DNA from: Pectinatus frisingensis
GTDB taxonomy: Bacteria; Bacillota; Negativicutes; Selenomonadales; Selenomonadaceae
Assembly (NCBI RefSeq): GCF_015732285.1
Contig: NZ_WIQU01000054.1
Location: forward strand, 1-64,000
Direction of reading: 5' to 3'
Length of the DNA stretch: 64,000 nt
The notes under the pieces are model-generated. The model saw only the letters and a program-made list of their open reading frames with translations, was not told the DNA's origin and did no database searches. Position numbers and translations under genes: made by a program. Position 1 is the first letter of the stretch. Each line of letters begins with the position of its first letter. This document shows, piece after piece, positions 13,191 through 19,813 of the stretch.

Positions 13191-13229
13191 AGAAAAAAGT
13201 GACTGCCGCATCTTCGAAATGCGACAGTC
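13191..13229 (-). terminator. Terminator of the 5-oxoproline operon
   Basis: On the minus strand GACTGTCGCAT pairs with ATGCGGCAGTC around a 7-base loop, then ACTTTTTTCTG. It lies 18 bases after the DUF1445 stop codon and closes the leftward operon. Confidence 0.85.
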
Positions 13230-13246
13230 CAAAATGATGTGATTAT

Positions 13247-14035
13247 TTACATTATAGCTAACTGGGCATTGGGAATATCGGTAATAAACATATAACCGGG
13301 TGCGTGAGTTATCATAAAGGCTGGTTTTACAGTCATTGCTATAGACTGCGGTGTTACACCGCAAGCCCAAAATACAGGAATTTCCCCATCGTATATCTTG
13401 GAAGGTTCACCGAAATCAGGTTTATTAATATCTTTAATACCAATCATTTCAGGATTGCCGAGATGAATGGGAGCGCCATGCACAAAGGGCATTCGTGTTG
13501 TTATTTGAATAGCACGGATAGCGTCGGCTGGTTTCATTGGACGCATAGATACGACCATTGGCCCATGGAAAACTCCGGCAGGGATACATTCGATATTGGT
13601 TAAATACATTGGCACATTGTGATTATCGGTAATGTGGCGTATTTCCAGACCAGCTTCAAGCATCGGACTTTCAAAGGAAAAACTGCAGCCTAAGAGAAAG
13701 GCAACCAAGTCATTGGACCAATATGGAGCAATATTATCAACCTCATCGGTTAATTCCCCATGACGATAGATGCGATAACGCGGAATGTCATAGCGAAGAT
13801 CAGCTGTTGGTGCCGTAAGGCGCGGTATGGGACTGCCTGCTTCAGTGACATCAAGCAGTGGACAAGGTTTTTTATTGCGCTGGCAAAATAGCAAAAAATC
13901 AAAAGCAAGTTCTTTCGGCAATATTACCATATTTGCCTGGGCATAGCCATTGCACATGCCGCTGGTCGGCACAGATATTTTCCCATCACGAACCAACTGA
14001 CGTACTTGTTTAGGTGTAAAATCTGCATAATTCAT
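13247..14035 (-). CDS. DUF1445 family protein, putative hydro-lyase / D-glutamate cyclase-like
   Basis: A 262-residue cytoplasmic protein of the DUF1445 (YcsI) family, seen from GMCNGYAQANMVILP, CPLLDVTEAGSP, DLRYDIPRYRIYRHGE, FLLGCSFSFE, and the C-terminal VFWACGVTPQ and THAPGYMFITD. The family is annotated as putative hydro-lyase. A DUF1445 domain is also part of the mammalian D-glutamate cyclase DGLUCY, which makes 5-oxo-D-proline. It is the last gene of the pxp-acc operon, 20 bases after accC. That context supports a role in making or recycling 5-oxoproline; the exact reaction is inferred. Confidence 0.83.
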   Translation of the reverse strand: MNYADFTPKQVRQLVRDGKISVPTSGMCNGYAQANMVILPKELAFDFLLFCQRNKKPCPLLDVTEAGSPIPRLTAPTADLRYDIPRYRIYRHGELTDEVDNIAPYWSNDLVAFLLGCSFSFESPMLEAGLEIRHITDNHNVPMYLTNIECIPAGVFHGPMVVSMRPMKPADAIRAIQITTRMPFVHGAPIHLGNPEMIGIKDINKPDFGEPSKIYDGEIPVFWACGVTPQSIAMTVKPAFMITHAPGYMFITDIPNAQLAIM

Positions 14036-14055: not shown

Positions 14056-15417
14056 TTACAAGGGTTTATTCAAGATTTCTTCTAAATGATCTTCCAGATA
14101 ATTAGTATCGATTCTTCCTGCGAGAAATATTTTATTGGCTAGTAGCCGGCGATGCATATCTATGGTAGTTTTGACGCCGGTTATTGTAAAATTATTTAAC
14201 GCATAGGCCATTTTTTCTATGGCTTTGTCACGCGTGGGGGCCCAGACAATTACCTTGGCGATCATTGAATCATAAAATGGTGTTATGATATTGCCGGTAT
14301 ACATAGCACTGTCAATGCGGATACCGCTGCCGGCGGGAGGACTATAGGCGGTCAGTATGCCTGGACAGGGCATAAAATTGTTATAAGGATCTTCAGCATT
14401 AATGCGGCATTCTATGGCCCAGCCATTAATATGAATATCATCTTGTGTCCAGGGAAGAACTTCTCCGGCAGCAACGATAATCTGTGCCTTGATAAGATCA
14501 GTTCCGGTTATCATCTCAGTGACTGGATGTTCTACCTGGATACGGGTGTTCATTTCCATAAAATAAAAATTTTTTTGTTCATCAACTATAAATTCAATGG
14601 TTCCGGCACCACTGTAATTAACGGCTTTAGCAGCGCAAACAGCTGCAGTTCCCATTCTTTTCCGCAGAACATCGGTTATTATAGGAGACGGGGCCTCTTC
14701 AAGCAGTTTTTGGTGGCGGCGCTGTACGGAACAGTCACGTTCTCCCAGATAAACGACATTACCGTAATTATCGGCCATTATTTGTATTTCTACATGTCGA
14801 GAATGTGTGAGGTATTTCTCCAGATAGACACCGGCATTACCAAAAGATCGTTCGGCTTCTTGCGCAGCCTGATGCAGTGCTTTTTCGAGTTCTGAACTGC
14901 TGTCGACGACACGCATTCCCTTGCCGCCGCCACCGGCAGTTGCCTTTATAAGCACCGGATATCCAATTTTTTCGGCGGTTTTCTTAGCATCGGCACTGTT
15001 TACAATAAGGTTTTTTGTTCCTGGAATAATAGGAACGGCGGCTTTGGACATAGTTTGTCTGGCAATAGCCTTATCGCCCATACTGGCTATTGCACTGCTT
15101 GATGGGCCAATAAAGTTTATATTGGCGTTTATACAGGCTTTGGCAAAGTCGGCATTTTCAGCCAGAAAACCATAACCGGGATGGATTGCGTCTGCCTTGG
15201 TGTGTAAAGCGATAGTGATTATTCTTGAAATATCCAGATAGCTTTTTTTAGCTTGTGAGGCACCGATGCAGTAAGCTTCGTCAGCTAATTTAACATGTAG
15301 TGAATCTTTATCGGTTTTTGAATATACAGCCACCGACAGAATGCCCATTTCGTGGCATGCTTTAATTATTCGGACAGCAATTTCACCACGATTGGCAATA
15401 AGAATTTTTCTAAACAT
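14056..15417 (-). CDS. accC: Biotin carboxylase subunit
   Basis: Carboxylates biotin on a carrier protein using ATP and bicarbonate. The 453-residue protein has the N-terminal FRKILIANRGEIAVRI, the ATP-grasp Gly-rich loop TAGGGGKGMRVV, EKYLTHSRHVEIQIMAD, ERDCSVQRRHQKLLEEAP, EMNTRIQVEHPVTE and ECRINAEDP. ATG 15417 is chosen over the ATG two codons upstream because the AGGACAGGG site is about 9 bases from it and family members begin MFxKILIANRGE. It is co-transcribed with accB and pxpC-pxpB-pxpA, while accA/accD are not present. It may therefore serve a dedicated carboxylase and not fatty acid synthesis. Confidence 0.95.
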   Translation of the reverse strand: MFRKILIANRGEIAVRIIKACHEMGILSVAVYSKTDKDSLHVKLADEAYCIGASQAKKSYLDISRIITIALHTKADAIHPGYGFLAENADFAKACINANINFIGPSSSAIASMGDKAIARQTMSKAAVPIIPGTKNLIVNSADAKKTAEKIGYPVLIKATAGGGGKGMRVVDSSSELEKALHQAAQEAERSFGNAGVYLEKYLTHSRHVEIQIMADNYGNVVYLGERDCSVQRRHQKLLEEAPSPIITDVLRKRMGTAAVCAAKAVNYSGAGTIEFIVDEQKNFYFMEMNTRIQVEHPVTEMITGTDLIKAQIIVAAGEVLPWTQDDIHINGWAIECRINAEDPYNNFMPCPGILTAYSPPAGSGIRIDSAMYTGNIITPFYDSMIAKVIVWAPTRDKAIEKMAYALNNFTITGVKTTIDMHRRLLANKIFLAGRIDTNYLEDHLEEILNKPL

Positions 15418-15431
15418 AAGCATCCCTGTCC

Positions 15432-15863
15432 TTAATAGGTTTTTATTCTAAATAACGGCTGCCCGTATTCGACAAAATCACCGTCTTTTACAAGAATGTC
15501 AACTATTTCGCCTTCAACCTGTGCTTCAATTTCGGAAAAAAGTTTCATTGCTTCTAAAATGCAAACAATAGTATTAGGGTGAACTTTTGTGCCAATTTTT
15601 ACGAAAGAAGGAATATCCGGTTCAGATGAACTGTAAAAAGTGCCTACCATTGGAGCCGTTATTTCTTCTGTTTTTTCTTGGGTATGTTCAATCAAAGCGG
15701 GAGAAATTGATTTGACTTTGTCAAAGGACTGTCCTGCTGCAATCGGGACACAGGAATTTTTTTCCAGGACGATTTCTCCGTCACTGTATTTTAATTTTAA
15801 TCTATTTAAAGTGGAATGCTCCAATGCCTGCATTAAATCTTTTATTTCCGATAATTCCAACAA
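15432..15863 (-). CDS. accB: Biotin carboxyl carrier protein
   Basis: A 143-residue biotin acceptor. The N-terminal helix region ([13 protein letters not shown]) is followed by a linker and a C-terminal biotinyl domain with the modification site EAMKL and the flanking [13 protein letters not shown] typical of AccB. The start is TTG 15863, 8 bases after AGGAGGA. It lies 15 bases after pxpC and directly before accC. A complete AccB-type N-terminus is present, so it could also serve acetyl-CoA carboxylase; gene context points to the oxoprolinase-type complex. Confidence 0.94.
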
Positions 15864-15878
15864 GATGGATTCCTCCTG

Positions 15879-16883
15879 TTAATTTTGTAATTTAGCATTT
15901 ATGGCAATCTTTATATTTTCCATGAACTTTTCCATCTCAATGAACAACTGCTCACCCTCTTCGTTGCTTATCAACTTGAAATGGATGTGATCATTGGGTT
16001 TCATCTGTGCTATGCGGGCAACGTCAACAGCAATTGCCTGAGCAATGATCGGATAGCCGGCTACCGATTGATGGTCGGCCATTAGAATAATGGGCAGCCC
16101 CTGAGGCGGAACCTGAATGGTACCAAGCCCCACTGCTTCGGATATTATTTCCAGAGGATTTTCTGTTCGCAGGAGGTCACCTTTTAAACGATATCCCATA
16201 CGATCGGCGTTGTTGGTGACAGTGTATTCAGATGAAAAAAAATTGTATTTTGATTGTTGATCAAAATATTTATAATGTATTCCGGCAGTCACACGTATAG
16301 GTTTGCGTAATATCTTGCCGGAGAGATGGGTCTTTCCTATATACCATTTGGCTTCAGCAAATGACTGTGCACCGCGGGAAAGCAGAGCTGATAGCATTTG
16401 CCTTCCGAAAGAGTGCGGCGTGCCAGTATTGAGTAAATCATTTTTTTGCAGGGAACGGCCTTTAAAACCACCAAAATTGGCTCTTAGGTAAGTGCTCTTG
16501 CTGCCCATGACCGGGTTGACATCAAAGCCACCAGCTGCGGCTAAATAAGCGCGGCAGCCTGTATGGCAGCTGTCGAATTTCATTATGGCCCCTGTCTTTA
16601 CGGCAACGGGACGCATATATGGGACAGGCATGCCATCGATTATCGGGTTAAAGTTACCGCCGGTGACAGCAATCAAAGTGTCGGCAGTAAATTCTATAGT
16701 CGGACCTAAAAGTGTAATCTCCAGTGTCCCTTCATTTTCGTCATTACCGACAAGCATATTGGCAAGACGCATTGAGTAGGTATCCATGGCACCGGATATT
16801 AAAACGCCTATTTTTTGATAGCCGTAACGGCCGGCATCCTGTATGCTGGTCAATAAACCGGGTCGGATTATTTTCAGACTCAT
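15879..16883 (-). CDS. pxpC: 5-oxoprolinase subunit C / carboxyltransferase A-B subdomain (KipA)
   Basis: A 334-residue KipA-family protein (CT_A_B domain, also found in the carboxyltransferase part of urea carboxylase). Motifs: GLLTSIQDAGRYGYQ, GAMDTYSMRLANMLVGN, LEITLLGPTIEF, AYLAAAGGFDV, GSKSTYLRANFGGFKGRSL, RMGYRLKG, EIISEAVGLGTIQVPPQG and LMADHQSVAGYPIIA. With PxpA and PxpB it forms the bacterial 5-oxoprolinase, which hydrolyses 5-oxoproline to glutamate with ATP. Its start overlaps the pxpB stop by 4 bases, so the two are translationally coupled. Confidence 0.94.
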   Translation of the reverse strand: MSLKIIRPGLLTSIQDAGRYGYQKIGVLISGAMDTYSMRLANMLVGNDENEGTLEITLLGPTIEFTADTLIAVTGGNFNPIIDGMPVPYMRPVAVKTGAIMKFDSCHTGCRAYLAAAGGFDVNPVMGSKSTYLRANFGGFKGRSLQKNDLLNTGTPHSFGRQMLSALLSRGAQSFAEAKWYIGKTHLSGKILRKPIRVTAGIHYKYFDQQSKYNFFSSEYTVTNNADRMGYRLKGDLLRTENPLEIISEAVGLGTIQVPPQGLPIILMADHQSVAGYPIIAQAIAVDVARIAQMKPNDHIHFKLISNEEGEQLFIEMEKFMENIKIAINAKLQN

Positions 16884-17608
16884 ACTTTATCCTCCTTCAG
16901 CCGTTGGTATTCTTCTGGTGAAATAGGTACGAATTTTACTAAATCGCCGGAATGCAGCAGACTGGGACTGGATGCTTTCAGATCAAATAAATTAAGCGGA
17001 GTGCGGCCAATAAGCTGCCAGCCACCAGGTGTGCTTATCGGATAGCCACCAGTTTGTTTACCGGCAATACCAATACTGCCGGCAGGAATGACCAGTCGAG
17101 GTTCCTTGCGCCGCGGTGTGGCAATCCGCTCATCCATTCCACCGAGATAAGGAAATCCAGGACAAAACCCGATCATATAAACCAGATAAGTACTCTGGGA
17201 ATGAATATTGATTACATCTGTACAACTTAAATTATTGTAGTTGGCAACAAATTCAATATCCGGGCCATATTCATCACCATAACATACAGGAATTTCCACT
17301 GTATGCGGCTTTGCCTGGGGCATCTTGACAGCTGCAGCTATATAATTTTTAATGAGCCCGGTTACAATAGTGAAAGCAGTTTTTTCTTTAGAGATTACAC
17401 AGTGGTTTTTTACTGTGAATGGATTATAAAAAACGGCAACACTGGTATAGGATATAGTATATTCACATAAACCGGGAAAAGGATGCTTATCTATGTAGTC
17501 AGATAAGTTTTTAACATTTTTGTGAATTTGCGGATTTATTTCATCGCCGAAAATAATAATAAGTCCGGTTTCACCAAGTGGTTTTATAGTATAGGCAAGT
17601 TTATCCAA
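16880..17608 (-). CDS. pxpB: 5-oxoprolinase subunit B / carboxyltransferase C-D subdomain (KipI)
   Basis: A 242-residue KipI-family protein (CT_C_D domain). Diagnostic segments are YTISYTSVAVFYNP, the EIPVCYGDEYGPD(I) stretch, YMIGFCPGFPYLGGMDERI, PRKEPRLVIPAGSIGIAGKQTGGYP within shorter blocks (PRL, PAGSIGIAG, QTGGYPI), and GGWQLIGRTP. PxpB and PxpC form the ATP-using half of 5-oxoprolinase; in B. subtilis KipI also inhibits the sporulation kinase KinA. No sporulation kinase is seen here, so the metabolic role is preferred. Confidence 0.94.
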   Translation of the reverse strand: MDKLAYTIKPLGETGLIIIFGDEINPQIHKNVKNLSDYIDKHPFPGLCEYTISYTSVAVFYNPFTVKNHCVISKEKTAFTIVTGLIKNYIAAAVKMPQAKPHTVEIPVCYGDEYGPDIEFVANYNNLSCTDVINIHSQSTYLVYMIGFCPGFPYLGGMDERIATPRRKEPRLVIPAGSIGIAGKQTGGYPISTPGGWQLIGRTPLNLFDLKASSPSLLHSGDLVKFVPISPEEYQRLKEDKV

Positions 17609-17633
17609 AATTTTTCTCCTTAGTGAATATGTC

Positions 17634-18392
17634 TTAAATAAACGCTTTTATTGCTATACCGGCGGTTTTTAATGCTTTGTTTATTTTTTCAGCAAAAAGC
17701 AATGCTTTGGCGCTGTCACCGTGAATGCAGATCGTGTCAGCTTTTACATTCAGTTCCTGGCCGTCGGCCGCAGTGACTTTTCCGTCCTTAACCATGTGCA
17801 GAACCTGCCGGATTGCTTTTTGTTCATCTGATAAAACCGCACCGGGTTGATTCCTCGGCATTAAGCTGCCATCTGCAAGATAGGTCCTATCAGCGAATAC
17901 TTCACTGGCTGTTTTTAATCCGATTTTGTCACCGGCAGTAATGAGCTCACTGCCGGCAAGACCAAATAAAATAAGTGAATTGTCTACCGCAAAAACGGCT
18001 TGAGCGATGGCCTCTGCTAAAGATTTATCTTTAGCAGCCATGTTATAAAGTGCCCCATGTGGTTTTACGTGCTGCATGTGACCTCCGGTGGATTTTATAA
18101 ATCCTTGTAGAGCGCCTATTTGATATACTGTGATGTCATATGCTTCTTGCGCGGATATTGCAATTTTGCGGCGGCCAAAACCGTTTAAATCCATTAACCC
18201 GGGATGCGCACCGATGGCGGTACTGTTTTTTATAGCAAGGGCAATTGTTTTGTGCATTACCCGTGGATCGCCGGCATGGAAGCCGCAGGCAATATTAGCT
18301 GAAGAAACGTATTTCAACACTTGGGAGTCATTACCAAGTGTATAAGCTCCGTAACTTTCACCAAGGTCACTGTTTAAGTCTATGGTTTGCAT
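17634..18392 (-). CDS. pxpA: 5-oxoprolinase subunit A (LamB/YcsF family)
   Basis: A 252-residue PxpA with all family landmarks: [16 protein letters not shown] at the N-terminus, [44 protein letters not shown] and CIHGDSA. These conserved Asp/His residues probably form the active site. It has a strong AAAGGAGG site. The 203-base gap to the upstream transporter gene is AT-rich and includes ACATGTAAACATGT (about 18.46 kb), a possible operator; no clear terminator is seen, so one operon with the transporter is likely. Confidence 0.95.
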
Positions 18393-18595: not shown

Positions 18596-19813
18596 TCAGC
18601 TGAGAAATTGATTTATAAAAGTATGGATGCTCATGTAACCCATCAGAAGAACCACCAGTAATCCTGTTAAAGTCATCCATACGGGGTGCCTGTAATTTCC
18701 TACGATTTTTTTATTATAAGCACCTACTAAAATAGATGCCAATGCCAATGGAAGAATAAAGCCATTTATTGTTCCGACGATAATCAGCACTTTAACCGGC
18801 TGGCCGATAAGGATAAATACAAGTGTAGAAAAAATGATAAAGCCGATAATTATTTTGCTGTAATAAGCATCAATTTTTGCACTGAAAGATTTGAGAAAGG
18901 ATACAGAGGTGTAGGCGCAGCCTATTACTGAAGTGGTGCCGGCAGACCAGATTACAATACCAAACAGCTTATAGCCAATATCTCCGGCGGCAGCCTGAAA
19001 TACGGAAGCGGCAGGATTAGACGGATCAATGGCGTAGCCGTGTGTAATGACACCCAGTGCACCCAGAAATAAAACTATGCGCATGACACCTGTTATTAAT
19101 ATGCCGCTGACGGCACTGCGGGTCGCCTGCGGTACAAAATTTATCCCTTTTATTCCGGAATCAAGCAATCTGTGACCTCCGGCAAAGGTTATATAACCAC
19201 CGACGCTGCCGCCGATTAAAGTTACCAAAGCCATTATGTCAATTTTATCAGGCATAAATGTCTTGACTACAGCATCGCCAACCGGTGGAAGAGCGGCAAC
19301 GGCAACAAACAATGCCAGCAAGAGGCGAACAATACCAAAGGTACTGACAAATTTGTCCATAATATCTCCGATTTGTTTGAAGCAAAAAATCGATAATGCG
19401 ATAATACCGCAAATGAAGGCGGCCGGTTTTATTGAAAGTCCGAACAAAACGTTCAAACCCAACGCAGCACCGGCTATATTGCCGATATTAAAACATAGTC
19501 CGCCGATGATAATTAGGACAGAGATGAAATAACCAAGTCCGGGAAGAACAGCATTACCGATTTCCTGACCGCGTTTACCGGAAGCAACGATGATACGCCA
19601 GACGTTTATTTGGACAATTATATCAATGATAACTGAAGCCAGAATTACAAAACCAAAACTGGCACCGGTTTTTTGTGTGAATACTGTTGTCTGCATGAGA
19701 AAACCGGGCCCAATGGCCGTTATCGCCATCAGAAATATTGCACCGATGTAAGAACGAAGTGTTGTTTTTACTTTGAACCGGTCGGCCTCTTTTTGAATCT
19801 TATTTTCGTCCAT
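18596..19813 (-). CDS. Nramp-fold transporter lacking the metal-binding motif (YcsG-like)
   Basis: A 405-residue membrane protein with about eleven hydrophobic helices and the Nramp (LeuT-like) fold start AIGPGFLMQTTVF. Typical Nramp metal transporters have DPGN in helix 1 and a Met-Pro-His-type motif in helix 6. Here helix 1 reads TQKTGASFG and helix 6 region reads GGYITFAGGHRLLDSG, so the metal ligands are not visible. Together with its position ahead of pxpA (as ycsG in B. subtilis), this suggests an organic or anion substrate, for example 5-oxoproline or glutamate-like compounds (inference). AAAGGAG precedes the ATG. Confidence 0.85.
   Translation of the reverse strand: MDENKIQKEADRFKVKTTLRSYIGAIFLMAITAIGPGFLMQTTVFTQKTGASFGFVILASVIIDIIVQINVWRIIVASGKRGQEIGNAVLPGLGYFISVLIIIGGLCFNIGNIAGAALGLNVLFGLSIKPAAFICGIIALSIFCFKQIGDIMDKFVSTFGIVRLLLALFVAVAALPPVGDAVVKTFMPDKIDIMALVTLIGGSVGGYITFAGGHRLLDSGIKGINFVPQATRSAVSGILITGVMRIVLFLGALGVITHGYAIDPSNPAASVFQAAAGDIGYKLFGIVIWSAGTTSVIGCAYTSVSFLKSFSAKIDAYYSKIIIGFIIFSTLVFILIGQPVKVLIIVGTINGFILPLALASILVGAYNKKIVGNYRHPVWMTLTGLLVVLLMGYMSIHTFINQFLS

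Follow-up and report, generated by a model that had tools for sequence, protein, structure and literature searches.

PxpABC, described in Bacillus subtilis, Escherichia coli and Corynebacterium glutamicum, is a 5-oxoprolinase whose three protein families are encoded in one operon. Opening of 5-oxoproline (pyroglutamate) is uphill, with a Keq of about 0.035 (PMC13274462; here and below, statements from cited papers refer to the extracts available), and the reaction requires activation. The families of PxpC (CT_A_B) and PxpB (CT_C_D) are also parts of urea carboxylase, or urea amidolyase, which joins them with a biotin carboxylase and a biotin carrier and is followed by a hydrolase; Lombard and Moreira asked in 2011 whether free-standing proteins of this carboxyltransferase fold have some different reaction to serve or work together with other biotin carboxylases (PMC3199775). 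Here we analysed a 64,000-nucleotide stretch of Pectinatus frisingensis DNA (NZ_WIQU01000054.1, positions 1 to 64,000; 'the window' means this whole stretch), in which pxpA, pxpB, pxpC, accB and accC, each with an open frame, follow one another leftward on the minus strand. The locus has the same three families as the described PxpABC systems, but unlike the E. coli and Bacillus tequilensis loci it adds a biotin carboxyl carrier protein (AccB) and a biotin carboxylase (AccC), very probably as a dedicated pair.

This gene arrangement is already in print. A six-gene operon of Staphylococcus aureus, a target of CcpE, includes pxpB, pxpC, pxpA, accB and accC (PMC11315280), so as a gene arrangement the locus, for an earlier note on this DNA the best candidate for an undescribed system, has been described before. 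In the available text of that paper, however, accB and accC are filed under fatty-acid synthesis and the pxp genes under amino acids, and no joint function is proposed; the extracts of another S. aureus paper place accC and pxpA in unrelated lists (PMC7642360). A homologous complex is also known. PDB entry 9YX5, released 2025-11-26 under the title 'Structure of the long chain acyl-CoA carboxylase complex from Mycobacterium smegmatis with MSMEG_0435-MSMEG_0436 bound', contains PxpC- and PxpB-like chains together with AccA3 in one structure, and it follows that PxpBC homologues are able to dock on a complex that includes a biotin carboxylase/carrier subunit; no publication describing the entry was found in the literature searched. 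AccA3 is a fused biotin carboxylase/carrier subunit common to several acyl-CoA carboxylases (PMC11001197), whereas the Pectinatus AccB and AccC are separate proteins encoded in the pxp operon itself. No proposal that AccBC serves PxpBC was found in the extracts of the literature searched, outside which most subscription journals lie.

We searched 189 genomes of Selenomonadales, the order of the window. A PxpC-like match was obtained in 50 of them, and 94 have a biotin carboxylase at E<=1e-60. When the 50 were sorted by their place in the tree, their neighbours and the length of the frame, they fell into 14 genomes with a PxpC of the window's clade, 29 with PxpC of other clades only (18 placed by tree; 11, namely eight of genus g18 with G117, G118 and G138, by genus or like pieces) and 7 with only long, urea-carboxylase-like frames. 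A standalone biotin carboxylase is present in all 14 window-clade genomes and in 7 of the 29 others, the remaining 22 having none (Fisher's exact test 1.5e-6, relatedness ignored), and accB and accC lie beside pxpC in 13 of the 14. In two genomes, G124 and G179, the pxp-linked AccC is the sole biotin carboxylase match.

The pattern was replicated in a second order, that of Megasphaera (61 genomes, completeness figures not given). Every one of these has one biotin carboxylase match in a frame of 1081-1193 amino acids, taken from its length to be pyruvate carboxylase. A standalone biotin carboxylase occurs in eight genomes, exactly the eight with a full-length window-clade PxpC (45-65% identity, clade assigned by tree), and in none of the 17 genomes with another PxpC or the 35 without PxpC. 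In all eight window-clade loci (seven fetched, plus L073 from G191) accB and accC are adjacent to pxpC; the matched AccC stretch of one genome, G218, contains a single TAA. The 17 other-PxpC loci have neither accB nor accC and keep pxpA, the transporter gene, pxpB and pxpC; the sequence of L209, which belongs to these 17, ends 215 bases after pxpC. We inspected loci from 24 of the 26 PxpC genomes (one of two in G246) and both pieces from G216, a fragmented genome in which parts of PxpC lie at the ends of two contigs and no standalone biotin carboxylase is present; it stands outside these counts. With four further Negativicutes loci (L068, L069, L078, L079), the pair is found across the class in 25 of 26 window-clade loci. 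The association of accB-accC with window-clade PxpC is not accidental.

The proteins also vary together. Over 22 linked loci, with near copies retained and no correction for relatedness, pairwise distances correlate at r = 0.83 for AccC-PxpC (n = 22), 0.77 for PxpC-PxpB, 0.75 for AccC-PxpB and 0.55 for AccC-AccB, AccB being short; pairs that include the transporter reach 0.11-0.27 (n 12-17; AccC-transporter 0.23, n = 17). Seven genomes have two AccC copies, which are 56-69% identical: PxpC distances correlate at 0.88 with those of the linked AccC, against 0.65 with the other accB-adjacent AccC, although the distances of the two copies are themselves correlated (0.81). Of 8 genomes of Bacilli and Clostridia that have a linked pair and were searched, 7 also carry an accB-adjacent, pxp-free accC. 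In the AccC tree (like our PxpC trees a quick one, with many weak forks) no pxp-linked AccC falls inside a clade of accB-adjacent, pxp-free AccC from the same genomes; the linked label needs five changes, and the linked copies may have a single origin. The best PDB match to the window AccC, 2vpq, which we take to be an S. aureus protein, was considered as a pxp-linked copy and dropped, since it branches with the accB-adjacent, pxp-free AccC.

The linked pair has the biotin carboxylase active site and biotinylatable lysine of a biotin-dependent carboxylase. All 23 pxp-linked AccB in the alignment retain the Met-Lys of the biotin motif. Eleven active-site and motif positions of AccC, including the lysines of GGGGKG and IKA, were checked by alignment; we chose and numbered them after what we take to be the E. 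coli AccC residues. Ten are kept in all 22 linked AccC and the equivalent of Arg338 in 21, the single AccC that lacks it being the shortened one of G164. Gene order, co-occurrence in two orders, co-variation and the homologue structure 9YX5 thus bear out the earlier note in so far as it links AccB and AccC with PxpB and PxpC, and the genome count it had called for comes to the adjacency figures above, 13/14 and 8/8. We regard AccB and AccC with considerable confidence as dedicated partners of window-type PxpBC.

The pair does not look like part of the usual fatty-acid machinery. Two of the four subunits of acetyl-CoA carboxylase are recognised here, AccB (TIGR00531) and AccC (TIGR00514). Across the assembly, whose 71 contigs add up to 2.92 Mb and whose completeness is listed as 100%, accA gave no match above cut-off (best 38.4 vs 319.3 bits), and the only PF01039 matches that might have been accD are two pieces of one methylmalonyl-CoA-decarboxylase-alpha-like (MmdA-like) gene; with 71 contigs, assembly gaps could account for either result. 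Because accA and accD were not found, AccB-AccC would stand outside a normal acetyl-CoA carboxylase, barring such gaps. The MmdA-like gene (L009 8769-10297, G000:C61) is adjoined by a carrier gene and is split in two frames (four other genomes of the genus: one full-length match), which is either an assembly error or a real break. The assembly has two standalone biotin carboxylases, the window AccC and one at C49:19867-21189 with 53% identity to it, and the open reading frames surrounding the latter include no carrier gene. The absence of accA and accD from the run, as first observed, therefore stands and extends to what was found in the assembly, and the thought that the pair might simply be the fatty-acid set sits badly with the same absence and with the presence of another biotin carboxylase. 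As for a second accBC set with accAD elsewhere, which had been proposed as a check, a second biotin carboxylase exists, but it has no carrier beside it, and accA and accD were not found.

PxpC and PxpB do share the carboxyltransferase fold of urea carboxylase, as the earlier note stated, PxpC by model and PxpB by sequence only. The AlphaFold2 model of the window PxpC (39-row alignment, pLDDT 90.2) matches Kluyveromyces lactis urea amidolyase 5i8i with Z 35.1 (308 residues superposed at rmsd 2.3) and 3va7 with Z 24.5. The Z score is 38.5 for E. coli YbgK, and M. smegmatis MSMEG_0435 is matched at Z 32.9. At E<=0.001 no ATP-binding Pfam family was matched in PxpA, PxpB or PxpC; AccC matches one (ATP-grasp).

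AccB and AccC probably feed carboxybiotin to 5-oxoproline opening. With ATP and bicarbonate, AccC would load CO2 onto the biotin of AccB; PxpB-PxpC would move the carboxyl group onto the ring nitrogen of 5-oxoproline; PxpA would hydrolyse the activated N-carboxy-lactam, and the hydrolysis product would lose CO2 to give glutamate, in parallel with allophanate hydrolase acting after urea carboxylase. We infer physical assembly in Pectinatus, the substrate and the carboxyl transfer. The window-type 5-oxoprolinase may thus be biotin-driven. Compared with urea carboxylase, the Pectinatus set consists of four separate proteins, lacks the general-base lysine and has PxpA in place of allophanate hydrolase. 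A further likeness is found in caprolactamase CapAB, an ATP-dependent lactam-opening enzyme that needs bicarbonate and for which a carboxy- or phospho-lactim was considered (PMC8453981), although according to its authors, in the extracts available, it has no sequence similarity to PxpABC. Taken as a whole, the statement that AccBC is a dedicated pair for PxpBC in a 5-oxoproline operon and that the chemistry is N-carboxylation has in our estimate a probability of roughly 0.5; N-carboxylation by itself falls a little short of an even chance. If biotin is required, 5-oxoprolinase would join urea amidolyase as a carboxylate-then-hydrolyse enzyme, and accB and accC genes filed under fatty-acid synthesis in such operons, as in S. 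aureus, would need re-examination. The strict pairing supplies a group of organisms and a five-protein set with which the question about PxpB and PxpC could be settled.

Several points weigh against this reading, the first of which concerns the catalytic residue. The general base for carboxyl transfer in K. lactis urea carboxylase is most likely Lys1605 (PMC5770610). Placed by counting along the K. lactis chain, this residue aligns to Arg166 of the window PxpB, and arginine is present there in 101 of 101 PxpB rows (22 linked, 67 unlinked, 12 other-clade), whereas three fused urea carboxylases have lysine. The PxpB-like chain W of 9YX5 carries arginine too, so arginine is compatible with docking on a carboxylase complex. 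The set also differs from urea carboxylase itself: none of its proteins reaches the urea carboxylase model TIGR02712 (cut-off 1303.85; AccC 546, PxpC 196, PxpB 42, AccB 30 bits), and the biotin carboxylase, carboxyltransferase and carrier parts, found in one polypeptide in urea carboxylase, are separate genes here. By title and chain names, 9YX5 is a case of binding, with no catalysis shown.

Related systems also manage without the pair. Among named genomes we took the best 80 of at least 583 confirmed matches, a non-random set with flanks of up to 6 kb and some shorter: 14 loci have accB and accC, in one accB occurs by itself, and in the other 65 neither gene was seen inside the flanks. These 65 count against this reading and against urea-carboxylase-like chemistry, and together with the invariant arginine they leave the urea-carboxylase-like catalysis of the earlier note unsupported. 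The B. tequilensis pxp locus, from what is presumably a near relative of B. subtilis, is among them, and pxpABC is, according to the extracts available and at second hand, needed genetically for 5-oxoproline use in B. subtilis. Other-PxpC genomes without a standalone biotin carboxylase (22/29 in Selenomonadales, 17/17 in the second order, where the transporter is kept too) retain PxpA, so AccBC is not required by every PxpABC. No PxpC column separates AccBC-linked from unlinked members of the clade at 70% thresholds. Within the window clade, G178 has lost the adjacent accB-accC and kept the remaining cluster. One of the 13 Selenomonadales genomes with the adjacent pair, G164, has a short pxpC of 169 amino acids and a short accC of 368. 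Finally, in the extracts available, phosphorylation of 5-oxoproline by PxpBC is assumed in print (PMC13274462), and co-purified PxpB and PxpC are stated, at second hand, to hydrolyse ATP.

In a rival reading AccB-AccC would bind PxpBC without carboxylating 5-oxoproline, in a regulatory or structural contact: biotin status or CO2 might gate a self-sufficient, ATP-dependent PxpABC, or PxpBC might inhibit a biotin carboxylase or serve as its storage partner. The arginine in place of the general base, the PxpABC clades that do without a standalone biotin carboxylase, the word 'bound' in the title of 9YX5, whose acyl-CoA carboxylase complex has carboxyltransferases of its own, and the second-hand report of ATP hydrolysis by PxpBC all suit such a contact. 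However, in the second order regulation would then be the sole apparent use of a whole biotin carboxylase and carrier, and the checked active-site residues of AccB and AccC are conserved, and we consider it unlikely. Equally doubtful in our view is the opposite extension, in which window-clade PxpABC would be a biotin enzyme everywhere, its ATP need arising from a biotin carboxylase that N-carboxylates 5-oxoproline. Negativicutes would have their own AccBC for this, Bacilli and actinobacteria would borrow the housekeeping pair, and the other clades would be biotin-free; tests in E. coli extract possibly borrowed the housekeeping pair, hiding a biotin requirement. The Negativicutes of the two orders searched seem to lack ordinary acetyl-CoA carboxylase.

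It is improbable that AccB-AccC instead work with the MmdA-like carboxyltransferase to make malonyl-CoA or another acyl product, with only transcription in common with the pxp genes. The genome has the MmdA-like gene and AccA and AccD were not found; moreover fabD is present in 182 of the 189 Selenomonadales genomes, and some malonyl-CoA source must therefore exist. Yet 95 of the 189 (43 of 99 high-quality ones) have no biotin carboxylase at E<=1e-60, while PF01039 is found in 174, and so the pair seems unneeded for this purpose; in the second order it occurs solely with one PxpC clade, and the Bacilli and Clostridia with a linked pair mostly have the separate, pxp-free one described above. 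Among the PF01039 matches listed, almost all are full-length and decarboxylase-like, usually one per genome. Selenomonadales bacteria seem to make malonyl-CoA without the normal acetyl-CoA carboxylase (accA having been searched for in the Pectinatus genome), and one guess is that the decarboxylase acts as a transcarboxylase. We know of no activity data for the window PxpC clade with AccBC. That the Pxp names mislead and the enzyme is a biotin-dependent carboxylase of another lactam, urea-like or amide compound would suit the other transporters of the Rhizobium and haloarchaeal relatives and the two PxpBC sets, suggestive of a division of labour, that lie a few kb apart in several genomes, but it too is improbable, as the transporter and D-glutamate-cyclase neighbours are those of the B. 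tequilensis operon and YcsG/PxpT is needed for 5-oxoproline use (PMC13274462).

The PxpC tree shows how the linkage is distributed. The tree has 105 rows, 23 of which are linked; this label needs nine changes, at least five of them forced by starred branches, and 22 window-type linked rows lie in one 50-row group (support 89, unstarred) with 28 unlinked rows, B. tequilensis included; because linked and unlinked rows mix there, accBC has been both gained and lost within one PxpC group. E. coli PxpC, on a long branch, is basal in one tree and beside the window clade in another, so that its placement is unsure. Treating the unlinked Negativicutes PxpC as one clade was dropped, as the tree has several.

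The same five families are clustered, in different gene orders, on two Rhizobium plasmids and a haloarchaeal plasmid: the Rhizobium CIAT894 set has an 80-amino-acid carrier, that of the archaeon Haladaptatus has accC on the opposite strand, and the third is Rhizobium BT04. On the plasmid loci of Bacillus badius, Variovorax and Azospirillum no accBC was found near pxpC; the Sinorhizobium plasmid locus is cut at the record end beside pxpC, and the S. aureus plasmid record is almost unannotated. In Clostridium brassicae (L094 9085-9570) accB closes the pxp cluster with no accC beside it. A different kind of set is seen at L062 3406-7844 (G047:C22), where CT_C_D, CT_A_B, a 72-amino-acid carrier-like frame, biotin carboxylase and PxpA are separate genes; it keeps the general-base lysine, and its PxpC is nearer urea carboxylase (297 bits) than the Pxp models. 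The CIAT894 (L183) and Haladaptatus (L184) sets are of a similar kind, and in a small alignment both have the lysine and BT04 has arginine. The clusters L053, L054, L055, L069, L073, L078, L079 and L193 each contain a pair of PxpB-PxpC sets that belong to different clades and are separated by only a few kb, and in all of these but L055 AccBC stands beside the window-type set.

The features of the locus are collected in the table below. PxpA, PxpB and PxpC families adjoin one another, as in the PxpABC 5-oxoprolinase genes, and frames and family profiles agree with the tight leftward five-gene operon first described, with its 4-base overlap of pxpB and pxpC. From the listed starts, the gaps of 25 bases (pxpA/pxpB) and 15 bases (pxpC/accB) are within the 15-26 given at first for the remaining junctions, and that of accB/accC is 8. 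To the original five genes we add the ycsI-like gene after accC and the NRAMP-like transporter gene before pxpA. A matching region is present in the same-genus genome G043 and in Pectinatus brassicae NZ_JACHFH010000029.1.

Table. Features of the Pectinatus frisingensis pxp-acc locus, in window coordinates
Feature	Position	Strand	Evidence and remarks
NRAMP-like transporter gene	18596..19813	-	PF01566 1.7e-21; 203-base gap to pxpA
pxpA, LamB/YcsF family, putative ring-opening subunit	17634..18392	-	PF03746 4.9e-102; above NF003814 subfamily cut-off
pxpB (CT_C_D)	16880..17608	-	PF02682 9.3e-70; TIGR00370 227.8 bits vs cut-off 145.55
pxpC (CT_A_B)	15879..16883	-	PF02626 1.3e-89; above TIGR00724 cut-off, below that of NF045499
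accB, biotin carboxyl carrier protein	15432..15863	-	TIGR00531 129.8 bits vs cut-off 115.2; EAMKL biotinylation motif
accC, biotin carboxylase	14056..15423	-	TIGR00514 708 bits vs cut-off 626.5
ycsI-like gene, D-glutamate cyclase family	13247..14035	-	PF07286 1.2e-66; NF003969 421 bits; 20 bases after accC
Terminator-like hairpin, 13 pairs and T run	13201..13229	-	After ycsI-like gene; consensus match only

The PxpC equivalog model NF045499 gives the window PxpC 251 vs 500 bits. Its failure was considered as the mark of a different enzyme and dropped, as B. tequilensis PxpC (260.8) fails likewise; since that protein fails and E. coli PxpC (591.8) passes, the model is a narrow one and describes no defining feature of the whole PxpC group. 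The transporter is, over the best-matching piece, 59% identical to the one encoded between pxpA and ycsI at the B. tequilensis locus L102, which resembles this one in its NRAMP-like transporter and YcsI neighbours. It occupies the place of the 5-oxoproline transporter, B. subtilis YcsG or C. glutamicum PxpT, and we infer orthology to YcsG from this position. A search of the leader for riboswitches (Rfam, E<=1) gave a miRNA family as its sole match, with 31 bits where the gathering score is 78. A 12-pair hairpin with a T run is found on the minus strand at 19886-19856, 42 bases before the transporter start, and is possibly an attenuator or the end of the upstream transcript. The ycsI-like gene is probably the last of the operon, and genes of this D-glutamate-cyclase-like family are common neighbours of pxp clusters among the relatives.

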